34,589 nucleotides of DNA from positions 1 to 34,589 of the forward strand of contig JAOPWV010000023.1 in NCBI GenBank assembly GCA_025965475.1, written 5' to 3'. The stretch's first letter is position 1. Each line of letters opens with the position of its first letter. Under the pieces are notes generated by a model, which made no database searches, had not been told where the DNA came from, and saw only the letters and a list, made by a program, of their open reading frames with translations. Below are positions 1 through 28,693 of this stretch, piece by piece. This DNA is from Frankiales bacterium (GTDB lineage Bacteria; Actinomycetota; Actinomycetes; Mycobacteriales; SCTD01). The translations under genes were made by a program, and so were the position numbers.

Positions 1-1727
1 GGCGGCGAGGCAGGCGACGGCGCAGACGGCGGCGAGGACGGCGGCGTGGGGCGCGCCGCCGGCACGGGCCCGCAGATGAAGCGGGGCTCCGGCAGGTAGC
101 GGGTCGTGAACGGCTCCCGCCGGACCACGCGTCCGCCCTGGCTGAACACCCGCGTCACGACGATGTCGAAGCCCTCGGCGCCGGTGGACGAGGTGCAGTC
201 CGGCCGGTCGACGTACTGGATCCCGAACGTCCGGATCCGCGTGCGCGGCCCGGTCTCGGACGTGACGTCGTACCGCTTCGCGCCCCAGAAGGTCACGGTG
301 ATCGACGTCGGGGTGTACGAGGTCTTGATGAGCACGCCGTTCGGCGAGTCGTTCTGGAACCGGAAGTCCGGCTCGGGGAACGACACCGTCGACTCGCGGC
401 CCGGCGGGTAGCGGCTGATGTAGTAGCTGTGCGGCGTGTGCTGCACGTCCTTGAGCCCGCTGAAGAACACCGCGTTGAACAGCGTGGTGGTGAACTGCGA
501 GATCCCGCCGCCGATGTCGTTGACGAACTGCCCGTGCAGGATCTGCGGCGCCGACCGGAAGCCGCGGGCCGCGTCCCGCTTGCCGACCACACCGTTGAGG
601 CTGAAGACCTCGCCCGGCAGCACGACGTACCCGTCGAGGAGCTCGGCGATGGTGTGGATGTTCGTCACCCGGTTCGCGCAGCACGGGTGGTAGGTCGTGA
701 ACGTGCCGATCGCCTCCCGCACGCCCAGCGTCGTCGCCCGCGAAGTGGTGACGCGCGGGGTGGTGACCTCCAGCCCCACGGCGGTACGGCGGGGAGCCGG
801 CGCGGTCAGTACGCCGGAGAGCGCCTTCTCCAGCGCGGCCGCCTTGATCGTGCGGCCGTCCCGGCCCGGTACGAGCACCGGCTGGCCCGAGGTCACGTCG
901 AAGGTCGCGTCGACGGGCGTCCGCTCGACCGCCCGCACGGTGCGGCCGAGGGAGGCGAGCACCTTGGCACCGTCCAGGTGCTGCCGCAGCGCGCCGTCGT
1001 CGTTCACGGTGAAGCTCAGCCCGGCCGCCACATCGGCCGCCCGGACGGTGACCGGGCGGCCCTCGACGTCGACCGTCACGGGCGCGGCGACCGCCGGCCG
1101 GGCCAGCGACGTCAGGGCCTTCTGCACGTCCTCGGGCGAGCTCTTGACCTTCTGCTCGGAGACCGGGACGTGCACCGACGGCTGGCGCAGCCACGCACGG
1201 GACACGGCGTCGGCCGCGGCGGCGACGTCGAGGCGGCGGCCGGCCAGCGGCTGCACGGGCACCGGAGACGCGCCGCGGAAGGTGATGGTGCCCTCCCGCG
1301 GGGCCCGGTCGACTCCGAGCGCGAGCCGCTTCAGCGCGGCCGAGAGGACGCCGCGATCCACCGTCGTACGAGGGGCCACGTCGCGGCGGGCACCGAACAG
1401 CCCGCGCAGCCGGGACAACGGGCCGGCGGAGGTGGCGTCCGCGACCGTGGCCGCGACGTCCAGCCGCAGGCCGGACGTGGCAGGCGGGAGGGCGAGCCGG
1501 ACCTCGCCGGCGACCAGCGTGAGCGGCCGGGCGGCCTGCGGCGCGAGCCGGCTCTCGACGAGGGCACGGGCCTGCGCCGGCGTACGGCCCGACAGGTCGT
1601 GTCCTGCGACATGCACGCCGCGGGGCACGTCACCGTCTGCGAACGCGAACGACGCTCCGTAGCCGAGGACGAGCAGCCCGAGGATGCCCCCGGCCGCGAG
1701 TACGGCCGGGCGTGGAAGCGGAGGCAT
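1..1727 (-). CDS. VanW-family exported/membrane-anchored protein, 3' end cut by window edge
   Basis: Reading the minus strand from an ATG at 1727 gives an open frame that runs off the window edge without a stop (at least 575 codons). The N-terminus is a single hydrophobic segment (about residues 8-28, AVLAAGGILGLLVLGYGASF), so the protein is probably anchored with most of the chain outside. The middle shows repeated Ala/Thr-rich units of the peptidoglycan-binding-like type common in this family (inference). The VanW core follows, with the hallmark NDIGGGISQFTTTLFNAVFF near 540-470. The last visible stretch is Pro/Ser/Ala-rich and low-complexity, suggesting an extracellular tail. The start overlaps the stop of the flavin reductase gene (TGATG at 1725-1729), so the two are translationally coupled. 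VanW proteins are found in vancomycin-resistance clusters and widely in Gram-positives, but their biochemical role is not established; a cell-wall role is inferred. Confidence 0.9.
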   Translation of the reverse strand, partial: MPPLPRPAVLAAGGILGLLVLGYGASFAFADGDVPRGVHVAGHDLSGRTPAQARALVESRLAPQAARPLTLVAGEVRLALPPATSGLRLDVAATVADATSAGPLSRLRGLFGARRDVAPRTTVDRGVLSAALKRLALGVDRAPREGTITFRGASPVPVQPLAGRRLDVAAAADAVSRAWLRQPSVHVPVSEQKVKSSPEDVQKALTSLARPAVAAPVTVDVEGRPVTVRAADVAAGLSFTVNDDGALRQHLDGAKVLASLGRTVRAVERTPVDATFDVTSGQPVLVPGRDGRTIKAAALEKALSGVLTAPAPRRTAVGLEVTTPRVTTSRATTLGVREAIGTFTTYHPCCANRVTNIHTIAELLDGYVVLPGEVFSLNGVVGKRDAARGFRSAPQILHGQFVNDIGGGISQFTTTLFNAVFFSGLKDVQHTPHSYYISRYPPGRESTVSFPEPDFRFQNDSPNGVLIKTSYTPTSITVTFWGAKRYDVTSETGPRTRIRTFGIQYVDRPDCTSSTGAEGFDIVVTRVFSQGGRVVRREPFTTRYLPEPRFICGPVPAARPTPPSSPPSAPSPASP

Positions 1728-14486: not shown

Positions 14487-15238
14487 CGTACGACGCGAAG
14501 CTGCGGGTCTGGCGCGGGGACGCCGACGGCGGGGAGCTGCGGGACTTCACGGTCGAGGCGAACGACGGCGAGGTCGTCCTCGACGTCATCCACCGGCTGC
14601 AGGCCACCCAGGCCGGGGATCTCGCGGTGCGGTGGAACTGCAAGGCCGGCAAGTGCGGCTCCTGCAGTGCCGAGATCAACGGCCGCCCCCGGCTGATGTG
14701 CCTGACCCGGATGAGCACGTTCGCCGAGGACGACGTCATCACCGTCACGCCGATGCGCACGTTCCCGGTGATCCGCGACCTCGTCACCGACGTCTCGTAC
14801 AACTACGAGAAGGCGGCGCAGATCCCCGCGTTCACGCCGCAGCCCCGCGACGCCGACGGCAACCACCGCATGCAGCAGGTCGACGTCGAGCGGCCGCAGG
14901 AGTTCCGCAAGTGCATCGAGTGCTTCCTGTGCCAGGACGTCTGCCACGTCGTACGCGACCACGAGGACAACAAGAAGGTGTTCGCCGGTCCGCGCTTCCT
15001 CATGCGGCTCGCCGAGCTGGACATGCACCCGCTGGACAACCTGGACCGGCGCAAGGTCTCGCAGGAGAACTTCGGCGTCGGCATGTGCAACATCACCAAG
15101 TGCTGCAGTGAGGTCTGCCCCGAAGGCATCCACATCACCGACAACGCGATCATCCCGCTCAAGGAGCGCGTGGTGGACCGCAAGTACGACCCGATCACCT
15201 GGCTCGGCGCCAAGATCGGCCGCCGCCCGCATTCCTGA
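14483..15238 (+). CDS. sdhB: Succinate dehydrogenase iron-sulfur subunit
   Basis: SdhB carries electrons from FAD to the membrane anchor. The 251-residue chain has an N-terminal [2Fe-2S] ferredoxin domain with C53, C58, C61 and C73 (NCKAGKCGSC...MC). The C-terminal domain has C144/C147/C150/C154 (CIECFLCQDVC) and C202/C207/C208/C212 (CNITKCCSEVC), enough for the [4Fe-4S] and [3Fe-4S] clusters. The length is normal. The ATG at 14483 overlaps the sdhA stop. The stop is only 24 bases from the stop of the convergent 53-residue membrane peptide gene, so little room is left for a terminator. Confidence 0.96.
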   Translation: MTYDAKLRVWRGDADGGELRDFTVEANDGEVVLDVIHRLQATQAGDLAVRWNCKAGKCGSCSAEINGRPRLMCLTRMSTFAEDDVITVTPMRTFPVIRDLVTDVSYNYEKAAQIPAFTPQPRDADGNHRMQQVDVERPQEFRKCIECFLCQDVCHVVRDHEDNKKVFAGPRFLMRLAELDMHPLDNLDRRKVSQENFGVGMCNITKCCSEVCPEGIHITDNAIIPLKERVVDRKYDPITWLGAKIGRRPHS

Positions 15239-15262
15239 CCATGCTGCGGCCAGGCGGTCCTG

Positions 15263-15424
15263 CTACCGCTTCCGGTTGAACATGCGCGCGGCGAGAACGC
15301 CGAGCACGATGCCGAACACGATGAACAGGATGACGACGAACAGGATCAGCCGGCCGATGCCGCGCAGCACTCCCCTCGCCTCGAGGTCCATCCCGGTGTA
15401 GAGAGCGGCGTGCAATGACGTCAT
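15263..15424 (-). CDS. Small single-pass membrane peptide, 53 residues
   Basis: The minus strand from ATG at 15424 encodes 53 residues ending in TAG at 15263-15265. Residues 1-22 are soluble (MTSLHAALYTGMDLEARGV), residues 24-46 form one strongly hydrophobic helix (ILFVVILFIVFGIVLGVLAA), and the tail is basic (RMFNRKR), which suggests a C-terminus in the cytoplasm. GGAG lies 5 bases upstream of the ATG. Codon third positions are G/C-rich like the neighbours, except in the Ile/Phe-rich helix. I know no family for it. It converges on sdhB but is on the other strand, so a role with Sdh is not implied. Confidence 0.6.
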   Translation of the reverse strand: MTSLHAALYTGMDLEARGVLRGIGRLILFVVILFIVFGIVLGVLAARMFNRKR

Positions 15425-15560
15425 GACGTCTCCGATCGTCGCGCCGGCCCACGCTCACGGTCCCTGAGGGCTGTGGCGATTCTCCCCCCGGACGGACCAG
15501 ATCACCAGGTCGGCCGGTCCTGAGCGGCGGCGACCGGTCGACGACCTCACGCCGGTGCAA

Positions 15561-15586
15561 CCCGCGGGGAGCAGTTTCCCTGCGGG
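15561..15586 (+). promoter_or_regulatory. Strong hairpin in the asparagine synthetase leader
   Basis: CCCGCGGGGA (15561-15570) pairs with TCCCTGCGGG (15577-15586) with a single G-U pair and a 6-base loop. It lies about 85 bases upstream of the TTG start. There is no T-run, so it is more likely a leader structure than a terminator. The rest of the 15425-15671 gap shows no other gene or clear promoter. Confidence 0.4.
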
Positions 15587-15671
15587 GCCGGTAGGGATGA
15601 CTGCCGCCGGGGCCTGCATCACGGTCGGCTCCTGCGGCTCATCCAAGGGGTCGAAGAGAGGGTTGTCTCCG

Positions 15672-17510
15672 TTGTGCGGCATCGCAGGGTGGATCAGCTG
15701 GGATGGCGGGACCCGGCCCGCCTCGTGGGTGCGCCGGATGGGACAGCTGCTGAACCACCGTGGCCCTGACGACGCCCGGGAGCGGCAGTGGGACACCGCA
15801 GGACTGGCCTTCCGCCGGCTGGCGCTGCTGGACCTCGCCGGTGGCGCGCAACCCGCCACGGACGAGGCGGGGCGGCTGTGGTCGGTGTTCAACGGCGAGA
15901 TCTACAACCACGCCGAGCTGCGGCAGCGGTTGCTGGCGCTGGGCCATCGGATCCGCGGCACCGGGGACGCCGCCCTGATCCCGCACCTGTACGAGGAGTG
16001 GGGCGAGGAGTTCGTCCACCAGCTGCGCGGGATGTTCGCCATCGCGATCTACGACAGCCGGGACGACCGGCTCCTTCTCGTACGTGACGGTTTCGGCATC
16101 AAGCCCTTGTACTGGGGCGAGCCCGCCGGAGCGCTGGTGTTCGGGTCCGAGGTACGGGCCCTCCGGGTCGCGGGCCTCGCGGGAGAGACCTCGCCGGACG
16201 CGCTGTCCCAGTACCTCAGCTTCGGCTACGTACCCGACCCGATGACCATGTGGCAGGACGTCCACATGCTGCCTGCCGGCCATCTGCTGTGCGCCCACGA
16301 CGGACGCGTCGACGTACGACGCTGGTGGTGCCCGGTCCTCGCACCCGCGCGGGCCGCCCCGCAGGAGCAGGTCGTGGACCAGCTGTTCGACTGCCTGGAG
16401 GAGTCCGTCTCCTCGCACCTGGCAGCGGACGTTCCCGTGGGCGCCTACCTGTCCAGCGGGGTCGACTCCAGCCTGCTGGTCGCGCTCGCCGCCCGGCGCC
16501 AGCCGGTGCGCACCTTCAGCATCGGGTTCGCCGGGAGCGAGGAGACCCTGAACGAGCTCACGGCCGCGCGGAAGCTCGCGGCGGCACTGGGCACCCAGCA
16601 TCACGAACAGGTGGTGTCGGCGGAGGACTACTGGGCCGCCCTGCCGCGGATCGTGCGGAGCCAGGAGGAGCCGCTGGCGGACCCGAGTGCACCGGCTCTG
16701 TGGTTCCTCGCCGAGGCGGCGAGCCACCACGTCAAGGCCGTCCTGTCGGGGGAGGGCGCCGACGAGCTTTTCGGCGGCTACCCGATCTACCGTGAGCCGC
16801 AGGCGCTGCGCGCCGTGACCCGGCTACCACCGCGGGCCCGCTCGGGGCTGGGACTGCTGGCGGACCACCTGCCGGACGGGCAGCGCGGCAAGGGCTACCT
16901 GCGCAGGGGCAGCACGCCGCTGGAACAGCGCTTCCTGGGCAACAGCGCGATCTTCGACGACGAGGCGAAGGCGGCTCTGCTGACCCCTGACGGCCCCGGC
17001 GGGACCACGCCGTCCGCCTCCCTGGTGCGGCGGTACTACGCCGGCACGGAGGGCATCGACGCCGTCGCCCGCATGCAGACGGTCAGCATCTCCACCTGGC
17101 TGCCCTGCAACATCCTCATGAAGGCCGACAAGATGGCCATGGCCCACTCCGTGGAGGTGCGCGTCCCCTATCTGGACAGGGAGGTCTTCGCTCTGGCCCG
17201 CCGGCTCCCTCGGCGCCTCAGGGTCGGGGGACGCAGGACCAAAGTCGCGCTGCGGGCGGCGGCCGAACAGATCCTGCCCCGCGAGTGTGCGCAGCGGCCC
17301 AAGCTCGGCTTCCCCGTGCCGTTCCGGAGCTGGCTGGACGGGCGGATCGGAGCCGACGTGAGAGGGATGTTCGGCGACTGCGCCGATCCGCTGCTGGACC
17401 GGGCCGGCCTGTTGCGGCTGCTGGACGACGGCCGCCATCCGGACAGGCACCGGCGGGTCTGGGCCGTCATGACGTATCTCCTGTGGCGCGAGCAGCAGCG
17501 GTGCGCGTGA
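15672..17510 (+). CDS. asnB: Asparagine synthetase B-type amidotransferase (glutamine-hydrolysing)
   Basis: The enzyme uses glutamine nitrogen to amidate a carboxylate, normally aspartate, through an acyl-adenylate. I place the start at TTG 15672, because the next codon is the Cys that becomes the N-terminal nucleophile after Met removal (CGIAGW). A purine-rich GAGAGG lies about 9 bases upstream. The 612-residue protein has RGPDD (30-34), FNGEIYNH (73-80) and GDGFGIKPLY-like elements in the glutaminase domain. The synthetase domain has the PP-loop SGVDSS (262-267) and SGEGADELFGGY. Both active sites look intact. Homologues act as true Asn synthetase but also in surface-polysaccharide, antibiotic and lasso-peptide clusters. 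The neighbouring peptidase and acetyltransferase make a specialised substrate possible. The asnB name is used for the family; the substrate is not proven. Confidence 0.9.
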   Translation: MCGIAGWISWDGGTRPASWVRRMGQLLNHRGPDDARERQWDTAGLAFRRLALLDLAGGAQPATDEAGRLWSVFNGEIYNHAELRQRLLALGHRIRGTGDAALIPHLYEEWGEEFVHQLRGMFAIAIYDSRDDRLLLVRDGFGIKPLYWGEPAGALVFGSEVRALRVAGLAGETSPDALSQYLSFGYVPDPMTMWQDVHMLPAGHLLCAHDGRVDVRRWWCPVLAPARAAPQEQVVDQLFDCLEESVSSHLAADVPVGAYLSSGVDSSLLVALAARRQPVRTFSIGFAGSEETLNELTAARKLAAALGTQHHEQVVSAEDYWAALPRIVRSQEEPLADPSAPALWFLAEAASHHVKAVLSGEGADELFGGYPIYREPQALRAVTRLPPRARSGLGLLADHLPDGQRGKGYLRRGSTPLEQRFLGNSAIFDDEAKAALLTPDGPGGTTPSASLVRRYYAGTEGIDAVARMQTVSISTWLPCNILMKADKMAMAHSVEVRVPYLDREVFALARRLPRRLRVGGRRTKVALRAAAEQILPRECAQRPKLGFPVPFRSWLDGRIGADVRGMFGDCADPLLDRAGLLRLLDDGRHPDRHRRVWAVMTYLLWREQQRCA

Positions 17511-17520
17511 GGGCCGCGCC

Positions 17521-17589
17521 GTGACCGGGGAGAGGGCCCTGCAGGCGTCCCGTCGTACCGCGGCTGCCCGGGCCTCCGGCTCCGTGTGA
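17521..17589 (+). CDS. Possible 22-codon coupled leader ORF before the peptidase
   Basis: A GTG at 17521, with GAGGG about 7 bases upstream, opens a 22-codon frame whose TGA (17587-17589) overlaps the GTG of the peptidase gene (17586) in a GTGA junction. The peptide would be Arg/Ala-rich (begins VTGERALQASRR) with no hydrophobic segment or Cys. The peptidase has no ribosome site of its own, so translation of this frame could deliver ribosomes to it. It may equally be chance. Confidence 0.3.
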   Translation: MTGERALQASRRTAAARASGSV

Positions 17590-18422
17590 GTCCCCGCCGC
17601 GTGCGGGTGCTCGGCGCCGTTGCCCTCCTCGCGTCGGGGACCCTCGTCCTGTCCGCCGGCCTCGCCACCCGGTCGTGGCCGTTCCCCGGGCATGCGCCCG
17701 CGGCCGCGCCCGTGACCAGCACCGGACTGCCCCCTGCCCGTGCGGTGCGACTGGGCTCGCCGCCCCCGGTCCGGCCGTCCGCCGGAGATGCGTTCGCCCC
17801 GGCTGCGCCGGTGCTGCTGAAGGTCCCCGTCCAGGGTCAGCTCCCTGAGCTGCGCAACGGCTGCGAGGTGACCAGCCTGTCCATGCTGCTGAGCTTCGTC
17901 GGCGAGGGCGTCGGCAAGATGCAGCTCGCCCGCGAGCAGGAGACCGACCCGGCACAGCCGGTCTTCGCTCCGGGAAGACGGGGGGACCTCAGCCGGATCC
18001 TCGCGTGGGGGGACCCCGCAGCAGGGTTCGTCGGCAACGTCTACGGGCCGTACGGGTACGGCATCCACCACGCGCCCCTGGCACGCCTGCTGGCCCGGAA
18101 GGTGCCGGGCCGGGCCGTCGACCTGACCGGGCGGGGGTTCGCCGACGTCCTCGCGCGGGTCCGTTCCGGCATGCCCGTGCTGGTGTGGACCACCACGACC
18201 ATGCGGCCGACCAGCCGCTGGGTCACCTGGCGAGGCCCCAGAGGCCCGGTGCGGGCGACGTTCAGCGAGCATGCCGTCCTGCTCGTCGGCTACACCCGTA
18301 CCGCTCTCGTCGTCAACGACCCCCTGACCGGCAGGCAGGAGTCCGTGGCCCCGGCGCCGTTCGTCGCGGCCTGGCGCCAGCTCGGACGCCAGGCCCTGAC
18401 GGTCGCGCCGACGGGTGGGTGA
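17586..18422 (+). CDS. Exported C39-like cysteine peptidase family protein
   Basis: This 278-residue protein has an N-terminal signal-like segment (residues 8-27, VLGAVALLASGTLVLSAGLA) and a Pro/Ala-rich linker to about residue 75. A papain-like C39-type domain follows. The probable catalytic residues are the Cys in RNGCEVTSLSMLL (about 93), the His in SEHAVLLVGY and the Asp/Asn in VVNDPLTG. The same layout is found in the Peptidase_C39_2/YvpB-type proteins of Gram-positives, which are extracytoplasmic and mostly uncharacterised. They differ from C39 domains fused to bacteriocin ABC transporters; none is fused here. The GTG at 17586 has no Shine-Dalgarno sequence but overlaps a short upstream frame. 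The gene lies 75 bases after asnB and 92 before the GNAT gene. Confidence 0.82.
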   Translation: MSPRRVRVLGAVALLASGTLVLSAGLATRSWPFPGHAPAAAPVTSTGLPPARAVRLGSPPPVRPSAGDAFAPAAPVLLKVPVQGQLPELRNGCEVTSLSMLLSFVGEGVGKMQLAREQETDPAQPVFAPGRRGDLSRILAWGDPAAGFVGNVYGPYGYGIHHAPLARLLARKVPGRAVDLTGRGFADVLARVRSGMPVLVWTTTTMRPTSRWVTWRGPRGPVRATFSEHAVLLVGYTRTALVVNDPLTGRQESVAPAPFVAAWRQLGRQALTVAPTGG

Positions 18423-18514
18423 GGCCGTAACCGGGCCACGGGCCGCCGATCGGTGCGAGCCCCCGCTGCCGTGGGTAGGAGGGCGAGCGTCGCGAACCCG
18501 GAGGGAGTGGCCAC

Positions 18515-19195
18515 GTGACCGCAAGTCGTCCCCACCCGCTGGCCTCCGACCCGGAGGGCAGCGGCTGCCGGGCCATGCAGGCCGCCGACCTGCCCGCCAT
18601 CGGCGTGCTGCACCCGCAGGTCCTCCCGCCCGACTTCTTCTCGCGACTCGGACCGGCCTTCCTCCGGCAGTACTACGCGAGCTTCCTGGACAGTCCTTTC
18701 GCCGTCGCGCTCGTGTACGTCGCCGACGGCCGCGTGGCCGGTTTCCTCGTGGGAGCCGTCGACCCCGGATCGCAGGTGGCGTGGACCCTTCGCCGGCATG
18801 GTCCGAGGATGGCGCTCACCGCCGTAGTCGCGTTGCTCCGCAAGCCCCCGCTGCTGCTGTACTTCGTGCGGACCCGGTTGCTGCGCTACGCCGCCGCCGT
18901 GATCCGGCGGCTGGTACCGAGCAGCCGGCCCGTCGCCGCGACGCAGCAGCCGGCGGCCACACTCGAGCAGCTCGGTGTCGCTCAGGACGGTCATCGGCGG
19001 GGCACGGGACGCTGCCTGGTCGCGACCTTCGAGCGGACGGTCCAGGCACGCGGTTGCACCGAGGTCCGCCTCCTCACGCGTGCCGACGCGGTCGGCGCGG
19101 GAGGTTTCTACCGAAAGCTGGGCTACGTCGCGGCCGGCACGTCGATCGGCCGCGACGGTGTCCCCTGGACCGTCTACCGGCACGCCCTGGCCTGA
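18515..19195 (+). CDS. GNAT-family N-acetyltransferase
   Basis: This 226-residue GNAT protein should transfer an acyl group from acyl-CoA to an amine. The acetyl-CoA loop is visible in QDGHRRGTGRCLVATFER (about residues 163-180; R-x-x-G-x-G type). The C-terminal RADAVGAGGFYRKLGYVAAG is the usual motif-B end. A long central insert (about 90-150) is hydrophobic and basic (VVALLRKPPLLLYFVRTRLL), which suggests membrane association. Similar GNATs with the opening VLHPQVLPPDFFSRLGPAFL occur with polysaccharide genes (recalled, not tested). The start is GTG at 18515 behind GGAGGGAG. The stop is 19 bases from the convergent Nudix gene. Confidence 0.85.
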   Translation: MTASRPHPLASDPEGSGCRAMQAADLPAIGVLHPQVLPPDFFSRLGPAFLRQYYASFLDSPFAVALVYVADGRVAGFLVGAVDPGSQVAWTLRRHGPRMALTAVVALLRKPPLLLYFVRTRLLRYAAAVIRRLVPSSRPVAATQQPAATLEQLGVAQDGHRRGTGRCLVATFERTVQARGCTEVRLLTRADAVGAGGFYRKLGYVAAGTSIGRDGVPWTVYRHALA

Positions 19196-19214
19196 CGACG
19201 CGCAGGCCTGTGAG

Positions 19215-19649
19215 CTACGAGGGCTGCGGGTGACGCGACGCCGCACCGACGGTCAGCAGCAGGCGCAGCTCGTGCACCAGTGGCAGGTCGACGGGGATCC
19301 ACGGGACGTCCTCGAGCTCGTCCACGGTCAGCCAGCGGTGCTCGTCGTGGTCGACCAACGCCGGTTCCCCGCTGAGGATCCGGGCCGTGTAGACCCGCAG
19401 CACCGCTGACCCACCGATCGGCAGGTCCGTCCCGAGGCGGTCGCCGATCTCGGCGTCCACCCCGAGCTCCTCGTGCAGTTCCCGCCGTAGCGCCTGCTCG
19501 TCGGTCTCCCCCGGCTCGACCTTCCCGCCGGGGAACTCCCACAGCCCGGCGAGCCGCGGCGGCCCGGTGCGCCGGCTGGCCAGCACGCTCGGCGGCTCGT
19601 CACGGAGCAGGGCGGCTCCGACGACGCCGGTCGGTTCGGTGGGCTGCAT
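19215..19649 (-). CDS. Nudix hydrolase, MutT-like
   Basis: The protein has about 144 residues and a complete Nudix box (GGKVEPGET...RRELHEELGV, fitting GX5EX7REUXEEXGU), so it should hydrolyse a nucleoside-diphosphate-linked substrate with a divalent metal. The opening VVGAALLRD and the line ASRRTGPPRLAGLWEFPGGK resemble MutT-type 8-oxo-dGTPases. Substrate range in this family is hard to predict. The start is either ATG at 19649 or GTG at 19661; neither has a clear ribosome site, and the ATG is used here. It lies about 40 bases past the GMC gene on the same strand and may be the last gene of that transcript, though its function gives no clear link. Confidence 0.9.
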   Translation of the reverse strand: MQPTEPTGVVGAALLRDEPPSVLASRRTGPPRLAGLWEFPGGKVEPGETDEQALRRELHEELGVDAEIGDRLGTDLPIGGSAVLRVYTARILSGEPALVDHDEHRWLTVDELEDVPWIPVDLPLVHELRLLLTVGAASRHPQPS

Positions 19650-19689: not shown

Positions 19690-21330
19690 TCAGGCGGTGG
19701 CGCCCCGGCTGTCGGCGATGTGCTCGGCGACCCGCCAGGCGTTGGCCATGATGGTCAGCGTCGGGTTGGCGCCGGTCGCCGTCGGGAACGAGCCGCCGTC
19801 GACGACGAACAGGTTGTCCACCTCGTGCGCCCGGCAGTTGCGGTCGAGCACCGACGTCTCCGGGTCGTTGCCCATCCGGGTCGTGCCGTGCTGGTGCGAG
19901 CAGTTGCCGGTGACCCGGTCGATATAGACGCGGTAGACCGTGGTCGCGCCGGCCGCCTCGAGGATCTCCGCGTTGCGGTCGATGAGGAACCGGCCCATGG
20001 CCAGGTCGTTCTCGTGCGGCTTCAGCGTGACGCGGGCGACCGGCAGGCCCCACGCGTCGGTGACCGTGTCGTCGAGGTCGACCCGGTTCTCGTGCTGCGG
20101 CATGTCGTGGATGACCATCGCGGCCGCGAAGCTGTGGTTGAAGTACTCGCGGTCCATCTGCTTCGCGCCGGCACCCCAGCCCGGCCGGTCCGGCAACGAC
20201 CAGTTGATCGGCAGCGGGATCCCGACGCCGGCCGCCGCGATGTGGCCACCGCCGGCGAAGCCGCGGCTGTCGTCGTGCTCATAGAACTCGAAGCTGCTCG
20301 CGCTGACGTAGCCACCGCCGGCCCAGGCGTAGATCGGGTCGTCGAAGGTGCCGACGGCCGCGCTGTACTCGTGGAAGGTCACGTTGCGGCCGACCAGGTC
20401 GCTGCCGTTGGCCAGCCCGTTCGGAAAGCGACTGGATCGGGAGAGCAGCATGAGCCGGGCCGTCTCCACCGCGCCGCAGGCGAGGACCACGACGTCGGCC
20501 TGCTGCTCGACGACGTTGCCGTCGGCGTCCTCGTAGACGGCACCCTTGGCCCGGCCGCGCTCGTCCACGGAGATCTCGCGGACGTAGCTGTCGGGGCGCA
20601 GTTCGTACCGGCCGGTGGCGACGGCGTCGGGGATGAACACGTTCAGCGCGCTGGACCGGGTTCCCGTCGGGTCACCGTGCTGCTGCGCGAAGGCGCTGAT
20701 CACCGTGGCGGGCCGGCCGTTGTACGGCTGGGACAGCGCGGCCTGCGGGGTCGGGAAGGAGTTCCAGCCGAGCTTGCCGGCGCCCTCGTGGAACTTCTCG
20801 GCGTACCGCGACTGGGGCATCGGCGGGCAGGGGTACCCGCGGCTGCGCCGGGACTCGTACTTGTTGGCCCCGGCCAGGCCGGAGACCCCGAAGGCCCACT
20901 CGACCTTGTCGTAGTACGGCTCGATCTCGTCGTACGTGATGGGCCAGTCCGCGAGCGAGGCGCCCGGCAGGTCGCCGACCACGCTGTGGAAGCGGAAGTC
21001 GTTCTCGGTGAACCGCGGCAGCCAGCCCTGCCAGTGCACGGTGCCGCCGCCGACCATCTGCGGGACCGGGCAGAACAGCTCGGTCCGCGCCTCCTGATCC
21101 GCCGACTCCCGCACCGTGCGCGGGTTCAGCAGCGGATCGGGCCACAGGTTGTAGCGGTTGATGTTCGCCAGCTCGTCGCCGCCGAACGTCTCCTTCGTAC
21201 GCCAGGGCCCGCGCTCGAGCGCGACGACCCGCAGGCCGCGCTCGGTGAGCACCTTGGCCGTGGCCGCGCCCGATGCGCCCGCGCCGATGATGACCACGTC
21301 GACGCGGTCGGGGTTCTTCGTGCGTGACAC
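19690..21330 (-). CDS. GMC-family FAD oxidoreductase (sugar/glycoside oxidase-dehydrogenase type)
   Basis: This 546-residue flavoprotein has the FAD dinucleotide motif GAGASG (16-21) and the GMC C-terminal domain. The likely catalytic pair is H479 (SHQHGTTRMG) and N522 (GANPTLTIM), corresponding to the His/His-or-Asn pair of glucose oxidase and pyranose oxidase-type enzymes. With the preceding gene it resembles two-subunit sugar dehydrogenases, such as glucoside 3-dehydrogenase and gluconate 2-dehydrogenase. No signal or Tat motif is visible: the N-terminus goes straight into the Rossmann strand (VDVVIIGAG), so the enzyme is probably cytoplasmic. The start is GTG at 21330, two bases after the stop of the subunit-3 gene. 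I expect it to oxidise a sugar hydroxyl, perhaps C3 of an imported glycoside; the substrate is inferred from context. Confidence 0.92.
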   Translation of the reverse strand: MSRTKNPDRVDVVIIGAGASGAATAKVLTERGLRVVALERGPWRTKETFGGDELANINRYNLWPDPLLNPRTVRESADQEARTELFCPVPQMVGGGTVHWQGWLPRFTENDFRFHSVVGDLPGASLADWPITYDEIEPYYDKVEWAFGVSGLAGANKYESRRSRGYPCPPMPQSRYAEKFHEGAGKLGWNSFPTPQAALSQPYNGRPATVISAFAQQHGDPTGTRSSALNVFIPDAVATGRYELRPDSYVREISVDERGRAKGAVYEDADGNVVEQQADVVVLACGAVETARLMLLSRSSRFPNGLANGSDLVGRNVTFHEYSAAVGTFDDPIYAWAGGGYVSASSFEFYEHDDSRGFAGGGHIAAAGVGIPLPINWSLPDRPGWGAGAKQMDREYFNHSFAAAMVIHDMPQHENRVDLDDTVTDAWGLPVARVTLKPHENDLAMGRFLIDRNAEILEAAGATTVYRVYIDRVTGNCSHQHGTTRMGNDPETSVLDRNCRAHEVDNLFVVDGGSFPTATGANPTLTIMANAWRVAEHIADSRGATA

Positions 21331-21332
21331 CG

Positions 21333-21986
21333 TCAGTCCTTCTGGCCGGGGTGGAGCCTGTTCTGGGCGAAATAGTCGAGCGTGCTGTAGCGACCGGTGT
21401 GGACCTCGGCGAGCGAGCTCGGCCCCGGGAAGCCGATGACCTGCCAGCCGACCTGGTCGCGGTTGCCGCCGTAGATCGGATCGGCGTAGAAGCCCTGCCG
21501 GGTGTGCAGCGCGAGCAGCGGCACGAAGCCGAGGTCGATCTCGGCGCTCGTCTGCTGCAGCGCCGGCTCGACGGGCGCCCCGTAGAGCGCGACGCGGGCC
21601 CGCTCGAGCTGGGCCTCCTCGCCGAGGTCGGGCTGCTCGAGCGCCCGCAGGACAGCGTCCTGCTGGTCCTCGGTGAGCGCGACGAAGTCGCCGTCGTACC
21701 GCTCCCGGCTGGTGCGGTCGAGCATCGCGACGCCGGCGACGTAGCGCTCACGGACGATGTCGAGCCGCTGCCGCCAGGCGTCGGCCCGCTTGCCGTCCAG
21801 CTGCTCGAAGCCGCTGCCGTCGGGCTTGGCGTAGACGTTCTCGATGCCGCCGAGGTACCGGTCGAGGAACTCGATCGTGCCGGCCTCGCGGGCACCCGGC
21901 GTGTCGTCGGTCGGGATGATGCGGGCCATTGCCGCCTCGACCGTGGCGCGCTGGTGCGCGTCGAAGAATCCCTGCGCCACGGTCAC
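21333..21986 (-). CDS. Gluconate 2-dehydrogenase subunit 3-like partner of the GMC enzyme
   Basis: This 217-residue protein matches the small subunit of two-subunit GMC dehydrogenases: it opens FFDAHQRATVEAAMARIIPT, then DDTPGAREAGTIEFLDRYLG, and includes GFYADPIYGGNRDQVGWQVIGFPG, the conserved patch of the family. This subunit usually has a Tat signal that carries the folded GMC subunit across the membrane. Here there is none, which supports a cytoplasmic pair. No cytochrome c subunit gene follows. The GTG at 21986 overlaps the stop of the TIM-barrel gene (GTGA at 21983-21986), and the GMC gene starts two bases past its stop. The subunit assignment is firm; the location is inferred. Confidence 0.9.
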   Translation of the reverse strand: MTVAQGFFDAHQRATVEAAMARIIPTDDTPGAREAGTIEFLDRYLGGIENVYAKPDGSGFEQLDGKRADAWRQRLDIVRERYVAGVAMLDRTSRERYDGDFVALTEDQQDAVLRALEQPDLGEEAQLERARVALYGAPVEPALQQTSAEIDLGFVPLLALHTRQGFYADPIYGGNRDQVGWQVIGFPGPSSLAEVHTGRYSTLDYFAQNRLHPGQKD

Positions 21987-22903
21987 GCCACCAGGAGGGG
22001 ACGCAGCGTGCGGTACGCGACCTGCAGCCCGGTCTCGATGCGTTCCTCGGTGCCGCCCCAGACGGGGTCCTCGTGCTCCACCGACAGGACACCGTCGAAG
22101 CCGCCCTCGTAGAGCGTGTCGACGACGCGGCGCCAGTCGACGTCACCGAGGCCCGGCACCCGGTACCGCCACCAGCCGACGTCCCACGGGTCCTCCCGGA
22201 CGACCGCCTTGCCCGGGTAGCCGTAGCGGTTGCGCCGTTCCGGGAACGTCTGGGCGTCCTTGGCCTGGGCGTGCGCGACCTTGTCGACGTACGGCCGCAG
22301 GGCCTCGACCGGATCGATGCCCATCCAGACCAGGTGCGACGGGTCGTAGTTGAGGTAGAGCCCGAGCCCGAACATCCACTCCCACAGCTCCGGGGAGTAC
22401 GCCAGGTTGCCGGGGTAGCCGTCGGGGTGCCAGCCCTCCATCACGCAGTTCTCGATGACGAGCTTGACCCCCTTCTCCCCCGCGCGGTCCACCAGCGGGG
22501 CGAACACCTTCTCGGCCTCGCGCAGGTTCTCGGCAACGGTCTTGCCGGGGTGGCGGCCGACGAACGTGCCGACGGTCGGGCAGCCGAGCAGCGCCGCGGC
22601 GTCGACGCAGGCGAGCACGTGCGCGTTGACCCCAGCCCGCTCCGCCGGGTCCGGGTGCAGGTTGTTGTCGTAGAAGGCCAGCGAGGACAGGGTCAGCTTG
22701 TGCTGCGCGAACAGGCCGCGTACGTCGTCCGCCTCGGCCGCGCCGAAGCCCGCGACGTCGAGATGGGTGGCCGTGAACGGCCGGTCGCCCAGCGCGGGCC
22801 AGGCTGCCACCTCCAACGCCTCGTAGCCCTCAGCCTCCGCCCAGCGCGCGATGTCCGCGAGGCTGCGCTTCGGCAGGCAGGCGGTCAGGAACCCGAGCTT
22901 CAT
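21983..22903 (-). CDS. TIM-barrel sugar isomerase/epimerase or lyase family protein (second copy)
   Basis: This 306-residue AP-endonuclease-2-type TIM barrel has metal-ligand stretches VIENCVMEGWHPDG, LYLNYDPSHLVWMGIDP, HAQAKDAQ and VLSVEHEDP, with Glu, His and Asp in the family positions. Family members act as isomerases or epimerases of sugars and keto-sugars, as inosose dehydratases and, in C-glycoside and levoglucosan pathways, as the enzymes that cleave 3-keto-glycosides. The ATG at 22903 overlaps the stop of the Gfo/Idh gene (ATGA), and the GTG of the subunit-3 gene overlaps its own stop. It differs strongly from the first TIM barrel of the operon (27863-28693), so the two probably do different steps. 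The specific reaction is not determined. Confidence 0.88.
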   Translation of the reverse strand: MKLGFLTACLPKRSLADIARWAEAEGYEALEVAAWPALGDRPFTATHLDVAGFGAAEADDVRGLFAQHKLTLSSLAFYDNNLHPDPAERAGVNAHVLACVDAAALLGCPTVGTFVGRHPGKTVAENLREAEKVFAPLVDRAGEKGVKLVIENCVMEGWHPDGYPGNLAYSPELWEWMFGLGLYLNYDPSHLVWMGIDPVEALRPYVDKVAHAQAKDAQTFPERRNRYGYPGKAVVREDPWDVGWWRYRVPGLGDVDWRRVVDTLYEGGFDGVLSVEHEDPVWGGTEERIETGLQVAYRTLRPLLVA

Positions 22904-24009
22904 GCGGCGACCTCCACCCAGCTGCGCGATGCCGCGGACTCGACGACCGCGGCGGTGATCTTGGCGGCCCGCAGGCCGTCGGTGAACGTCGGCGCACCCT
23001 CCCGCGCGCGGTCGGTCACCGACGCGTAGGTGTCGCCGACGAACGCGTTGAAGCAGTCCTGGTAGCCCTGCGGATGGCCGGCCGGGACCGTGGCGAACGC
23101 CGCGGCGGCGGGCGACAGCGTGTCCGGGCCGCGCATGACCGAGCGGTTCTCCTGCCGGCCGCCGACCCACAGCGAGTCGGGCAGCTCCTGGTCGAAGACG
23201 TACGACGCCGTGCGGCCGTCGAAGGAGAACCACAGCCGGTTCTTGCGGCCGGGCGACACCTGGCTGGTGACCACCGAGCCGGCCGCGCCGCGGTCGGTCT
23301 CGAACATCACCGTCGCGCCGTCCTCGGTGTTCACCGGGGCCATACCGCCCGGGCCGTCCCCGCCCTGCCGGTGCTCGAAGGCGGTCGCCATCAGGGAGGT
23401 CAGCCGGACGATCCGGTGCCCGGTGGTGAACTCCATCAGGTCGCACCAGTGCACGCCGATGTCGGCGAAGGCCCGGGAGGCGCCACCCAGCGCCGGGTCG
23501 ACCCGCCAGTTCGTGTCGGCCTCGCTGGCCAGCCAGTCCTGCAGGTAGGAGCCGTGCAGCATCCACAGCGGTCCGGCGTCGCCGGCCGCGATGCGGGCCC
23601 GCGCCTCGCGGACCGTCGGGTAGTAGCGGTAGACGAACGGCACCGCAGTCACCACGTCGGTCTTGGCCGCGAGGTCGACCAGCCGTTGCGCGTCCTGCAC
23701 GGTGGTTGCGAGTGGCTTCTCGCAGATCACGTGCTTGCCCGCGGCGAGGGCCTGCTCGGCGAGCTCCGCGTGCAGGTGGTTCGGCGTGCAGATGTGGACG
23801 ACGTCGACCTCGTCGGACTCGATGAGCTCCTGCGCCGAGGCCGCGCCGCGGTCGGCGTAGAGCCGCACCGCCGCCTCTTCCGCCCGCTCCGGCGAGGTGT
23901 CGGCCACCCGGGTGAGGGTGGCGCCGGAGGCGCGCACCGCGTGCGCGTGGATGCCGCCGATGAAGCCCGTGCCGATGATCCCCGCACGCAGGGGCCGCCG
24001 GGCCGTCAC
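22900..24009 (-). CDS. Gfo/Idh/MocA-family NAD(P)-dependent sugar oxidoreductase
   Basis: This 369-residue protein has the N-terminal Rossmann motif GIIGTGFIGGIHA, the conserved HVICEKPLATTVQDA (catalytic Lys in EKP) and DIGVHWCDLMEF, where the His is the usual proton relay. The family oxidises or reduces sugars and cyclitols, including 1,5-anhydrosugars, inositols and levoglucosan. The GTG at 24009 overlaps the permease stop (GTGA at 24006-24009), and the stop overlaps the next gene (ATGA). The longer open frame upstream of 24009 is a shadow of the permease gene. It may oxidise the imported sugar, or reduce a keto-sugar released after cleavage. Family is certain; direction and substrate are not. 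Confidence 0.93.
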   Translation of the reverse strand: MTARRPLRAGIIGTGFIGGIHAHAVRASGATLTRVADTSPERAEEAAVRLYADRGAASAQELIESDEVDVVHICTPNHLHAELAEQALAAGKHVICEKPLATTVQDAQRLVDLAAKTDVVTAVPFVYRYYPTVREARARIAAGDAGPLWMLHGSYLQDWLASEADTNWRVDPALGGASRAFADIGVHWCDLMEFTTGHRIVRLTSLMATAFEHRQGGDGPGGMAPVNTEDGATVMFETDRGAAGSVVTSQVSPGRKNRLWFSFDGRTASYVFDQELPDSLWVGGRQENRSVMRGPDTLSPAAAAFATVPAGHPQGYQDCFNAFVGDTYASVTDRAREGAPTFTDGLRAAKITAAVVESAASRSWVEVAA

Positions 24010-24998
24010 TTCCGCCTCGCCATGGCGACAGCAAGGATGATGATGAGACCGCGGATGATCTGCTGCTGGCTGGTGTCGAGCCCGGCCAGGATCAGCCCGT
24101 TGTTGATGAGCCCGATCAGCAGGGCGCCCATCAGGGTGCCGACGACCGAGCCCGCCCCGCCGAACAGGCTGGTGCCGCCGAGGATGACCGCGGCGATGGC
24201 GGACAGCTCGTCGCCGGCGCCCCACTGGAACCGGCCGGACTGGAGCCGCCCGGCGTAGAGCATGCCGGCGACGCTGGCGACGACCGAGCACAGCAGCAGC
24301 ACCTGGAACTTGATGCGCTTGGTGTTCACGCCGGTGAAGTCGGCGGCGGTCCGGTTGCCACCCGTGGCCAGCACCTGCCGGCCGAACCGGGTCTTCGCCA
24401 GGATCACCGCGCCGATGGCGACGAAGATCCCCATCCAGATGATCAGGATCGGTACCGGGCCGATGTTGCCGGACCCGAAGATCGAGTTGAACGTGTCGTT
24501 CAGGATCGGCTGAGGCGCCGAGTTGGTGATCCATTGCGCGATGCCGGCGGCGATCCCGAGCATGCCCAGTGTCACGAGGAACGACGGGATGCCGAGCATG
24601 CTGACCAGGCCGCCGTTGATCGAGCCGATGACCAGACCGACGGCGAGCCCGGCGAGGATGCCGGCCGCGATGCCGTACCGGGACAGCGCCATCGCCGTAC
24701 AGACACTGGACAACCCGGCGACCGAGCCGACGGACAGGTCGATCTCGGCGCACGCGATGACGTAGGTCATGCCGACCGCGATCACCGTGATGGTGGCCGT
24801 CTGCCGGAAGATGTTGAGCAGGTTGTTCTTCGACAGGAAGCCCTGGTCACCCAGCAGCACCGCGAAGAACAGGAACACGACGACGACACCGATGTAGATG
24901 ATGTAGCGGCGCCAGTCGAGGGTGGCGAGCCGGCCGCGCCTGGCGACCGCGTTCTGGCCCGGCGCGCCGGGCGCGCCAGTTGTCGCGCTCTGGGTCAT
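24006..24998 (-). CDS. Sugar ABC transporter permease (RbsC/XylH type)
   Basis: This 330-residue inner-membrane permease has about 8-10 hydrophobic segments and the family stretches GMTYVIACAEIDLSVGSVAG and AAVILGGTSLFGGAGSV. These are hallmarks of the BPD_transp_2 family that imports ribose, xylose and related pentoses, hexoses or cyclitols. One permease gene is present, so it should act as a homodimer with the double-NBD ATPase. The ATG at 24998 lies 3 bases past the ATPase stop. The C-terminus is short (VAMARRK) and the stop overlaps the Gfo/Idh start. The substrate cannot be told from the permease. Confidence 0.95.
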   Translation of the reverse strand: MTQSATTGAPGAPGQNAVARRGRLATLDWRRYIIYIGVVVVFLFFAVLLGDQGFLSKNNLLNIFRQTATITVIAVGMTYVIACAEIDLSVGSVAGLSSVCTAMALSRYGIAAGILAGLAVGLVIGSINGGLVSMLGIPSFLVTLGMLGIAAGIAQWITNSAPQPILNDTFNSIFGSGNIGPVPILIIWMGIFVAIGAVILAKTRFGRQVLATGGNRTAADFTGVNTKRIKFQVLLLCSVVASVAGMLYAGRLQSGRFQWGAGDELSAIAAVILGGTSLFGGAGSVVGTLMGALLIGLINNGLILAGLDTSQQQIIRGLIIILAVAMARRK

Positions 24999-25001
24999 GG
25001 A

Positions 25002-26543
<1,542 letters not shown>

Positions 26544-26585
26544 TGCTCAGCTCCCAGCCGTGTCGTGCGTCGAGGGGGTGTGCCG

Positions 26586-26618
26586 CGACCGGGCGGCCGG
26601 ATCACGGCCGCCCGGTCG
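26586..26618 (-). promoter_or_regulatory. Perfect 14-bp hairpin between binding-protein and ATPase genes
   Basis: CGACCGGGCGGCCG (26586-26599) and CGGCCGCCCGGTCG (26605-26618) are perfect inverted repeats with a 5-base loop. The hairpin begins about 5 bases past the stop of the substrate-binding-protein gene. No T-run follows on the minus strand. Such hairpins after a binding-protein gene typically stabilise the upstream transcript or attenuate the downstream genes, giving more binding protein than transporter. This is inferred, not shown. Confidence 0.6.
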
Positions 26619-26623
26619 GGACG

Positions 26624-27805
26624 CTACTTGAAGGAGTTCTTCAGGTCCGCGGGCGCGTCCTGGTGGTACACCTGCTTCCAGGCGTCGAGCACGTTGGAGT
26701 GCTGCACCGGCAGCGACGGCAGCGCGACGTACGCCGGCGTCTTCTGACCGAGCAGCGCCTTGACCGCGAGGTGCACCTCGGTGACACCCTGGTCGTACGG
26801 GCGCTGCGCACCCAGGCCGACGATGAGCTCGCCCTTGGCCAGCGCGATCGCGACGTTCTTGCCGAGGTCCTCAGTGGCGATCTTCAGGTCGTTGCGGCCG
26901 GAGGCCCGGGCCGCCGCCATGACGCCCTCCGCCGGGACGTCCCAGACGGCCCAGATACCGTCGAGGTCGGCGTGCTTGCTCAGCATCGCGTTGGCCGCGG
27001 CCTGCGCGTCACCGGCGAAGTCCGGACCGGCGATGCCCTTCTCCTCGACGACCTGGATGTCCTTGTAGTTGTCCGCGATCGTCTTCTTGAAGCCCTCGTA
27101 ACGCTGCTTGGTCACGAAGAAGTCGGCCTCGTGGAAGATCAGGCCGATCTTGCCCTTGCCGTTCAGGGCCTTTGCCATCAGGTGCGCGGAGGTCACGCCG
27201 TTGCCGTAGTTGTCGGCCGACACCACGGAGGCGTAGTCCTTGCCCGCCGTGAAGCCCTTGGGCACGTTGTCCATGAAGACGAGCTTCACGCCGGCGGCGG
27301 CTGCGGCCTTGTAGGCGCTCGCGGTGGCGACCGGGTCGGTCGGGATCGACACGATGACGTTGGGCTTCTTGGCCAGCACGGTCTGGATGTCCGAGACCTG
27401 CTTGTCCGGCTTGAAGTTGGCGTCGGTGGTGGCGACGACCTCGATGCCCACCTTGGCGAACTCCGCCTTGAGACCGTCGATCTGCGCGACCGACCAGTCG
27501 TTGCCGCCGTAGTGCATGACGATCGCGGCCTTGGCGTGCATCGCCTTGACCGCGTCGATGTCGGCCTGCGTGATGTCGGCGGACGACGCGGGGGACGGGT
27601 CCTCGCCGTTCGGGCCCTTGCTCAGGACCTGCTCCTGGATCTTGGCGAGCGCAGCGTCAGCCGCGGCCGCGGCGCCGCCGCCGGCGGCGGCTGCCGAACC
27701 GGAGGCGGCGGGTGCCGCGGTTCCTCCGCTCGAGGAACCGCAGGCGGTCACAGCGAGCGCGAGCAGGACGGGGGCCGCCAGGGCCCTGATCCGAATGCGT
27801 GTCAT
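26624..27805 (-). CDS. Sugar ABC transporter substrate-binding lipoprotein
   Basis: This 393-residue protein has a lipoprotein signal, with basic MTRIRIR, a hydrophobic core and lipobox VTAC with C22 as the attachment site. A low-complexity Ala/Gly/Ser linker (about 23-50) follows. The mature part is a periplasmic-binding-protein type I (ribose/inositol-like) fold with AAIVMHYGGNDWSVAQID, then SDIQTVLAKKPNVIVSIPTD, and ends WKQVYHQDAPADLKNSFK. It should sit on the outer face of the membrane and feed the permease. The ATG at 27805 has GGAGAG about 5 bases upstream. A 14-bp hairpin follows the stop. The ligand is unknown; the family binds sugars and cyclitols. Confidence 0.95.
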   Translation of the reverse strand: MTRIRIRALAAPVLLALAVTACGSSSGGTAAPAASGSAAAAGGGAAAAADAALAKIQEQVLSKGPNGEDPSPASSADITQADIDAVKAMHAKAAIVMHYGGNDWSVAQIDGLKAEFAKVGIEVVATTDANFKPDKQVSDIQTVLAKKPNVIVSIPTDPVATASAYKAAAAAGVKLVFMDNVPKGFTAGKDYASVVSADNYGNGVTSAHLMAKALNGKGKIGLIFHEADFFVTKQRYEGFKKTIADNYKDIQVVEEKGIAGPDFAGDAQAAANAMLSKHADLDGIWAVWDVPAEGVMAAARASGRNDLKIATEDLGKNVAIALAKGELIVGLGAQRPYDQGVTEVHLAVKALLGQKTPAYVALPSLPVQHSNVLDAWKQVYHQDAPADLKNSFK

Positions 27806-27862
27806 GCGGTCTCTCCGGTGGACGAGCGGCCGAGGCCGCGGTGACGGAACAGGAAGACGGGT

Positions 27863-28693
27863 TCAGGCGCCCAGGTCGGCGAGCAGTCCGTCGAGGAACG
27901 CCTTGCTGATCTCGGCGGCCTCACGGGGATCGCCGTCGTACGCGTCGAGCTCGACCAGGAGCCAGCTGTCGTAGCCGGTCTCGCGGACGGCGCGGACGAT
28001 GTCGTCGAAGTCGAGCTCGCCCTGCCCGAGCGGCAGGAACTCCAGCGGGTCTCGACGCAGGTCCTTGAGGTGCACGTGCCTGATCCGGTCCGGGTAGGCC
28101 CGGATCAGTGCGGCCGGGTCTCCGCCGCCGGCCGCCAGGTGGGCGGTGTCGGGGCAGAAGCCGATGCGGGTCCGCGGGAGCAGCCGCTCCAGCTCGCTCG
28201 GGCTCTCGACGATCGTGGACAGGTGCGGGTGGTAGCTGGCGACGAGGCCGTGGTCGTCGGCCAGGTCGGCGACCTTGTCCAGCGCCGCGGCCAGCTTGTC
28301 GTAGTCCTCGTCGCGGGTGCCGGCGGCGCGACGGGCGCCACCGCCGACGACGAGGCGGCTCGCGCCGGCCGCGGCGGCGAGCCGGCAGGCACGGGTGACC
28401 CGGTCGAGCTCGTCGGGCAGGATCTCGTCGTAGATGAAGTTCGCGCCGGTGTAGACGCTGACCAGCTCGAGGCCGGCCTCGGCGTGCAGGTCGCGCAGGT
28501 AACCGGGCCGGTCGGCGAAGTCGGCGACGTTCCCGTCGAACATCTCGGTGCCCTCGTAGCCGGCGGCGGCGATGTCACGCACGGCCTGCTCCATCGCACC
28601 GTTGGTCCGGTAGTAGAGGTCCTTCACACTGGTCACGCCCTGGGCGTGACCGACGACGCCGCCCCACGTGATGGTGTGACACCCGAGCCGCAC
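27863..28693 (-). CDS. TIM-barrel sugar isomerase/epimerase family protein (first copy)
   Basis: This 276-residue AP-endonuclease-2-type TIM barrel opens GCHTITWGG and has metal-ligand stretches YEGTEMFDG, SYHPHL, GFCPDTAHLAAGG, RHVHLKDLRRD and WLLVELDAYDG. The family includes inosose dehydratase (IolE), hydroxypyruvate isomerase and sugar epimerases; the opening resembles IolE-like proteins, but I cannot decide between them. It is the first gene of the minus-strand operon, read from GTG at 28693 about 48 bases past a good promoter. The next gene begins 58 bases past its stop, so it can be made together with the transporter. Two TIM barrels in one operon point to a multi-step conversion of a sugar or cyclitol. 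Confidence 0.88.
   Translation of the reverse strand: MRLGCHTITWGGVVGHAQGVTSVKDLYYRTNGAMEQAVRDIAAAGYEGTEMFDGNVADFADRPGYLRDLHAEAGLELVSVYTGANFIYDEILPDELDRVTRACRLAAAAGASRLVVGGGARRAAGTRDEDYDKLAAALDKVADLADDHGLVASYHPHLSTIVESPSELERLLPRTRIGFCPDTAHLAAGGGDPAALIRAYPDRIRHVHLKDLRRDPLEFLPLGQGELDFDDIVRAVRETGYDSWLLVELDAYDGDPREAAEISKAFLDGLLADLGA

Follow-up and report, generated by a model that had tools for sequence, protein, structure and literature searches.

A probable peptidoglycan-tailoring cassette of AsnB, C39-like peptidase and GNAT genes, horizontally acquired by a Frankiales bacterium

A 34,589-nucleotide stretch of DNA from a Frankiales bacterium (contig JAOPWV010000023.1), here called the window, carries genes for an AsnB-like glutamine amidotransferase, a C39-like cysteine peptidase and a GNAT-family acyltransferase. 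The trio was acquired horizontally and probably constitutes a peptidoglycan-tailoring cassette. In the cytoplasm, AsnB would move the amide of glutamine onto the epsilon-carboxyl of meso-diaminopimelate (mDAP) in the wall precursor. Outside, the membrane-anchored C39-like peptidase would cut stem peptides of the AsnB-amidated wall, its action probably being tuned by the mDAP amide. The GNAT may acylate an amine on the same wall precursor or on another envelope substrate. Each kind of enzyme is already known, and the combination is new as far as the literature was searched: among the papers that searches of the open-licence PubMed Central (PMC) literature listed, no title or opening of an abstract describes a cell-wall unit pairing AsnB with a C39 peptidase or with a GNAT.

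Insertion of the islet and recurrence of its gene combinations

In three relatives from the same genus (G001, G002 and G003) and one from the same family (G006), sdhB directly adjoins a NUDIX gene. When the window was compared by blastn with the sdhB regions of these relatives, the alignment broke and resumed around the trio, leaving without counterpart positions 15231-19252 (G001), 15231-19262 (G002), 15231-19255 (G003) and 15208-19263 (G006). The trio thus lies on an insertion of ∼4 kb peculiar to this species, together with a minus-strand open reading frame (ORF) of 53 amino acids (Table 1). The C39 gene is present in 1 of 24 genomes of the window's family, and none of the other AsnB matches in the family exceeds 41% identity to the window AsnB. 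The G+C content of the islet is not distinct from that of its surroundings.

An earlier note on this DNA had singled out an AsnB, an exported C39-like peptidase and a GNAT on one strand as a set. The reading frames, their Pfam matches and the hydrophobic segment of the C39 protein agree with that description, and the grouping is upheld by the recurrence of the combinations in distant bacteria. The note had also let its reading depend on linkage in relatives. Here the outcome is divided, as the genes are linked in distant bacteria but not in close relatives, which lack C39 and have either another kind of AsnB or none; likewise, a tblastn search of 41 neighbourhoods surrounding actinobacterial matches to GNAT, C39 or AsnB revealed no co-occurrence of the trio proteins. 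Because AsnB, sought at E 1e-145 in 396 genomes from the phylum, matched the window alone, the donor was sought outside the phylum.

The gaps within the trio (75 and 92 bp) and the shared strand suggest an operon. A consensus scan of positions 15100-19400 found no sigma-70-type promoter or terminator, which neither helps nor hurts this suggestion. The 53-residue ORF had no match by tblastn at E 1 in the other fetched loci, copies of the window excepted.

Table 1. Features of the islet (positions in the window)
Feature	Position	Strand	Basis
AsnB-like glutamine amidotransferase of the putative mDAP-amidating superclade	15672-17510	+	TTG start, Cys2; PF00733, PF13537, TIGR01536, trees
C39-like (papain-fold) cysteine peptidase, predicted to be membrane-anchored or exported	17586-18422	+	PF13529; C93, H229, N244/D245, Q85
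GNAT-family acyltransferase with insertion; family found beside cell-wall genes	18515-19195	+	PF00583
Islet between sdhB and the NUDIX gene	15239-19214	not applicable	sdhB and NUDIX abut in four relatives
Membrane-like ORF of 53 amino acids inside the islet, perhaps incidental	15263-15424	-	reading frame

Genome contigs were scanned with the C39 alignment, and the best 80 of 546 relatives, all Bacillota by title, were kept. AsnB lies inside the fetched locus in 14 of these 80, in three arrangements: AsnB followed by C39 on the same strand (L155, L164, L171, L174 and L229), divergent (L189, L191, L199 and L211) and convergent (L190, L197, L205, L225 and L228). The two reading frames overlap by 4 bp in L171 and L174, and two convergent rows (L190 and L197) hold, by eye, a metK-like ORF, as found beside Listeria asnB. 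AsnB was detected at E 1e-90 in 29 of 30 C39-bearing genomes searched (36 places); among 30 AsnB regions then read from such genomes, seven have C39, two have GNAT and one has both. The order of Alicyclobacillus tolerans yielded AsnB at E 1e-120 in 28 of 59 genomes, at 30 places. Within the 30 Alicyclobacillales AsnB neighbourhoods, C39 occurs in four (L266, L269, L313 and L318), and GNAT, directly downstream of AsnB, in four (L266, L267, L325 and L326); the seven loci with either or both always have them downstream on the strand of AsnB. The locus with both is that of A. tolerans (L266), where AsnB, GNAT and C39 are consecutive. L326 has a Mur ligase gene after AsnB-GNAT, and a class A penicillin-binding protein (PBP) gene lies directly 3' of the second AsnB of A. 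tolerans (L271). On plasmids, tblastn found AsnB adjoining a C39 peptidase in Anoxybacillus amylolyticus and Peribacillus asahii. Same-strand units of three compositions (AsnB-C39, AsnB-GNAT and AsnB-GNAT-C39) recur in Alicyclobacillus/Sulfobacillus-type Bacillota, and their neighbourhood is not due to chance.

The AsnB, C39 and GNAT trees were computed quickly, have no bootstrap values and contain flagged long branches; support is given by the Shimodaira-Hasegawa-like approximate likelihood ratio test (SH-aLRT). In a 63-row AsnB tree, a 20-row clade (SH-aLRT 95) unites the window with the 12 same-strand linked AsnBs of the regions read and seven unlinked ones, and no linked AsnB is found in the 19-row sister clade or in an 8-row Paenibacillus clade. 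A 97-row C39 tree places the window in a 19-row clade (SH-aLRT 96) with nine of the ten same-strand linked C39s. The two trees separately point to the same Bacillota group. The loci nearest to the window AsnB have a high G+C content (0.75 in L164, 0.70 in L276 and 0.68 in L277), which may explain why that of the islet is inconspicuous.

A bolder extension, possible although doubtful, is that the cassette is a mobile system of wall marking with writers and an editor. AsnB, with the GNAT, would mark the mDAP of the precursor and C39 would recognize the mark, so that a private peptidoglycan chemistry crosses phyla in one step; such cassettes would have arisen more than once, each time out of these three gene types but in a different order.

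Proposed substrates of the three enzymes

Glutaminase function requires cysteine as the second residue, which AsnB has, and both its domains score above their Pfam cut-offs (Asn_synthase, 306.6 bits; GATase_7, 136.9 bits). It also exceeds the cut-off of the asparagine synthase model TIGR01536 (446.7 against 267.1) and is the sole Asn_synthase protein above cut-off in its genome. These scores would suit a plain asparagine synthase gained by transfer with two unrelated riders, and mDAP-type AsnBs, for example that of Bacillus subtilis, can be promiscuous (excerpts of PMC8554201). The TIGR01536 score does not settle the substrate, because the AsnB of Listeria, a proven mDAP amidator, is likewise annotated as asparagine synthase. 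A plain asparagine synthase is considered unlikely, since the partners recur in distant genomes, close relatives do without any AsnB, and the sequence features described below differ from those of E. coli. AsnB was matched at E 0.001 in 34 of 41 genomes searched; the seven negatives comprise one genome of the genus (G001) and six elsewhere in the family. The lineage thus manages without this class of enzyme, incomplete genomes permitting, which speaks against asparagine supply as the purpose of AsnB.

In a 50-row AsnB tree, the window groups with L155, L164, L171 and L174 (SH-aLRT 97), and this clade falls with the Listeria AsnB and those of the window's order into a 36-row superclade (SH-aLRT 96), which contains one proven mDAP amidotransferase, that of Listeria. 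Excerpts of PMC8554201 report that Listeria AsnB amidates mDAP of peptidoglycan and that mDAP-amidating AsnBs have an extra loop and lack the Asp-binding residues of asparagine synthases. The window AsnB has the loop, RGKGYLRRGSTPLEQRFLGN, and a motif composed from the alignment after its inspection, RGSTPLEQRFLGN, is present in 35 of the 36 superclade rows and in none of the 14 others. At the place of the E. coli stretch TTIRAST it has EPLADPSAP, a comparison judged by the stretch as a whole, not by the exact Asp-binding residues. Clade and loop together point to mDAP of the wall precursor as the probable substrate. At L057, the only neighbourhood read among the superclade AsnBs of the order, a cytochrome oxidase-like gene adjoins AsnB by eye.

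Amidation of a surface polymer was one half of what the earlier note had proposed, and surface amidation is indeed the likelier half; its polysaccharide version is weaker than peptidoglycan. AsnB would then find its amidation target, a uronic or other acid, in a surface polysaccharide or a teichoic acid, where the GNAT would acetylate an aminosugar. Genus-mates do have AsnBs in sugar clusters (L055 and L056), and the window AsnB reaches 432.7 with TIGR03108, the model of the XrtA/PEP-CTERM polysaccharide-system amidotransferases, though below the cut-off of 816.9. The L055 and L056 proteins, however, lie outside the superclade and have no loop, and inspection by eye shows neither glycosyltransferase nor sugar genes next to the trio or next to those linked Bacillota units that were read, all of which makes this route improbable.

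The C39 protein matches Peptidase_C39_2 (PF13529) with 101.5 bits against a gathering threshold of 24. Its N-terminal hydrophobic segment starts at residue 8, is 19 residues long and has a mean Kyte-Doolittle value of 2.06; such a segment precedes the catalytic domain in 68 of the 80 Bacillota C39 loci. In an alignment of 27 sequences Q85, C93 and H229 are invariant and N244 is found in at least 90%. An AlphaFold model built from this alignment has a mean predicted local distance difference test (pLDDT) score of 80.0, with the catalytic part mostly >90. Its best structural match is a Bacillus anthracis C39-like peptidase (3erv, Z 30.4 over 194 residues), followed by the leader peptidase 6mpz (Z 15.6) and the pseudomurein endoisopeptidase PeiR (Z 15.2), the second-best Foldseek match. 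The N5 domain of mycobacteriophage endolysins has been matched to the B. anthracis peptidase and predicted to cut at D-Glu-mDAP (excerpts of PMC3314691), and the carboxypeptidase DacB of Lactobacillus plantarum requires mDAP amidation for full activity (PMC4155827, in part). Phage records gave C39 matches solely in nine labelled Listeria phage. Fold and gene neighbours suggest that C39 acts on the wall, and the resemblance to PeiR offers only a lead toward a peptidoglycan endopeptidase.

The fold of C39 is shared by leader peptidases, of which 6mpz is one, and a peptide pathway would use all three enzymes: AsnB would close or amidate a ribosomally synthesized and post-translationally modified peptide (RiPP), or act in an N-acetylglutaminylglutamine amide (NAGGN)-like solute pathway, C39 would remove a leader and the GNAT would cap. 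NAGGN clusters bring together genes for an amidotransferase, an acetyltransferase and a peptidase. The window AsnB nevertheless stays below the cut-offs of the NAGGN amidotransferase model TIGR03104 (352.7 against 570.1), the lasso peptide cyclase model NF033535 (163.2 against 525) and a second lasso-cyclase model (77.7 against 300), and the family's AsnBs of NAGGN-like type stand in a clade of their own in the 50-row tree. No precursor and no ABC exporter was seen nearby, just as the earlier note had remarked; the sole extra ORF noted in the islet is the membrane-like one of 53 residues. The peptide-biosynthesis half of that note's proposal accordingly fails to find support, and a RiPP or NAGGN-like pathway is very improbable.

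The GNAT, which scores 35.5 bits with Acetyltransf_1, is the least known of the three, and its role in the cassette can only be proposed from its company. Relatives lie beside MurJ and VanY (L051; G021), VanW and an M15 peptidase (L329), Lgt (L330), VanW (L331), or MurJ with a PBP some genes further (L333). A scan of genome contigs with the single GNAT as query matched 194 stretches, none of them a relative. That its substrate is a wall precursor is a natural guess, no more. By eye, several actinobacteria pair the GNAT with a similar lipoprotein-like ORF (L106 9037-10050, L052 7579-8625 and L100 6657-7769); that of L106 is without a Pfam match.

Several observations weigh against a peptidoglycan-tailoring cassette. 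Of the 30 AsnB loci in Alicyclobacillales, 23, some of them on short contigs, are without C39 and without GNAT, and AsnB is missing from 66 of the 80 C39 loci. The full trio occurs in one other genome alone, and the linked rows are not independent, L171/L174, L267/L325 and others being close kin. The same-strand linked pair of L229 belongs neither to the linked AsnB clade nor to the linked C39 clade. The GNAT tree leaves the place of the window unresolved (support 17), so that a possible separate origin of this gene is neither shown nor excluded. The loop motif was a second attempt: a stricter first motif matched 24 of the 50 rows, none outside the superclade, and missed the nearest Bacillota AsnBs. 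The match to PeiR is not specific, because the VIA-align rows hold many papain-like enzymes at Z 12-15, and the C39 fold also includes toxins besides leader peptidases.

Metal-associated relatives and other genes of the window

Seven of the nine Bacillota plasmid stretches with AsnB or C39 that were opened lie in a metal-resistance context (L145-L150 and L152), with copper/heavy-metal ATPases, CopZ, multicopper oxidases and copper-binding proteins; several of them also hold C40, M15, Lgt or LspA genes. Among the plasmid stretches with the GNAT, two of six opened are explicitly copper-related. Metal stress may be linked with wall tailoring. A copper link of the trio itself was set aside as a lead only, because the islet is without metal genes.

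These plasmid copies, the patchy distribution of the genes and the lysozyme sensitivity of cells that lose mDAP amidation (excerpts of PMC8554201) would also fit a protection islet, in which amide and acyl groups shield the wall against wall-attacking enzymes or toxins and C39 removes something foreign. Against this, PADLOC profiles gave no match at E 0.001 for any of the three proteins, no toxin or immunity partner was seen, and the metal context is missing from the islet. This function is rated quite improbable.

Elsewhere in the window, a VanW protein with peptidoglycan-binding domains is encoded at the edge (3-1727, minus strand), 14 kb from the islet. Positions 19690-28693 (minus strand) encode a GMC oxidoreductase and a gluconate 2-dehydrogenase subunit 3-like protein, with sugar isomerase-, Gfo/Idh/MocA- and sugar ABC transporter-like ORFs by eye, and are likely a sugar-oxidation locus.

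Comparison with known systems

To our knowledge, enzymes known to read or require the mDAP amide are few, and a C39 peptidase and a GNAT travelling with an amidotransferase are direct candidates. In Gram-positive bacteria this modification has effects on resistance to lysozyme, on septation and cell shape, and on recognition by the immune system (excerpts of PMC8554201 and PMC4155827). If a peptidoglycan-tailoring cassette is the correct reading, it would provide the first role for the Bacillota C39-like family and would mean that peptidoglycan chemistry moves between phyla as a small cassette.

Like the mDAP amidotransferases (AsnB of Listeria and B. subtilis, AsnB1 of L. plantarum and LtsA of Corynebacterium glutamicum), the window AsnB is predicted to carry out glutamine-dependent amidation in the cytoplasm; for LtsA, diaminopimelate amidation in lipid intermediates is described (excerpts of PMC7920481). 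It shares superclade and extra loop with the Listeria enzyme but is 37% identical to it and belongs to a deeper Bacillota branch. In contrast to the known mDAP amidotransferases, it is accompanied by C39 and GNAT on an inserted islet; the L. plantarum gene asnB1 is a neighbour of murE (PMC4155827, in part). With the NAGGN and XrtA/PEP-CTERM amidotransferases and the lasso cyclases it has the two-domain architecture in common, whereas its scores lie below their curated cut-offs and the family's NAGGN-like AsnBs belong to another clade.

The window C39 is of the same family as the B. anthracis peptidase 3erv and its Bacillota kin (profile E 5.6e-78). The former is named a putative peptidase only, whereas the window C39 stands in an operon-like row with AsnB. 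PeiR offers a papain-like fold of a wall-peptide enzyme, at 14-19% identity. The mycobacteriophage endolysins that carry the N5 domain are phage lysis enzymes, in contrast to the window C39, which is chromosomal and predicted to be membrane-anchored.

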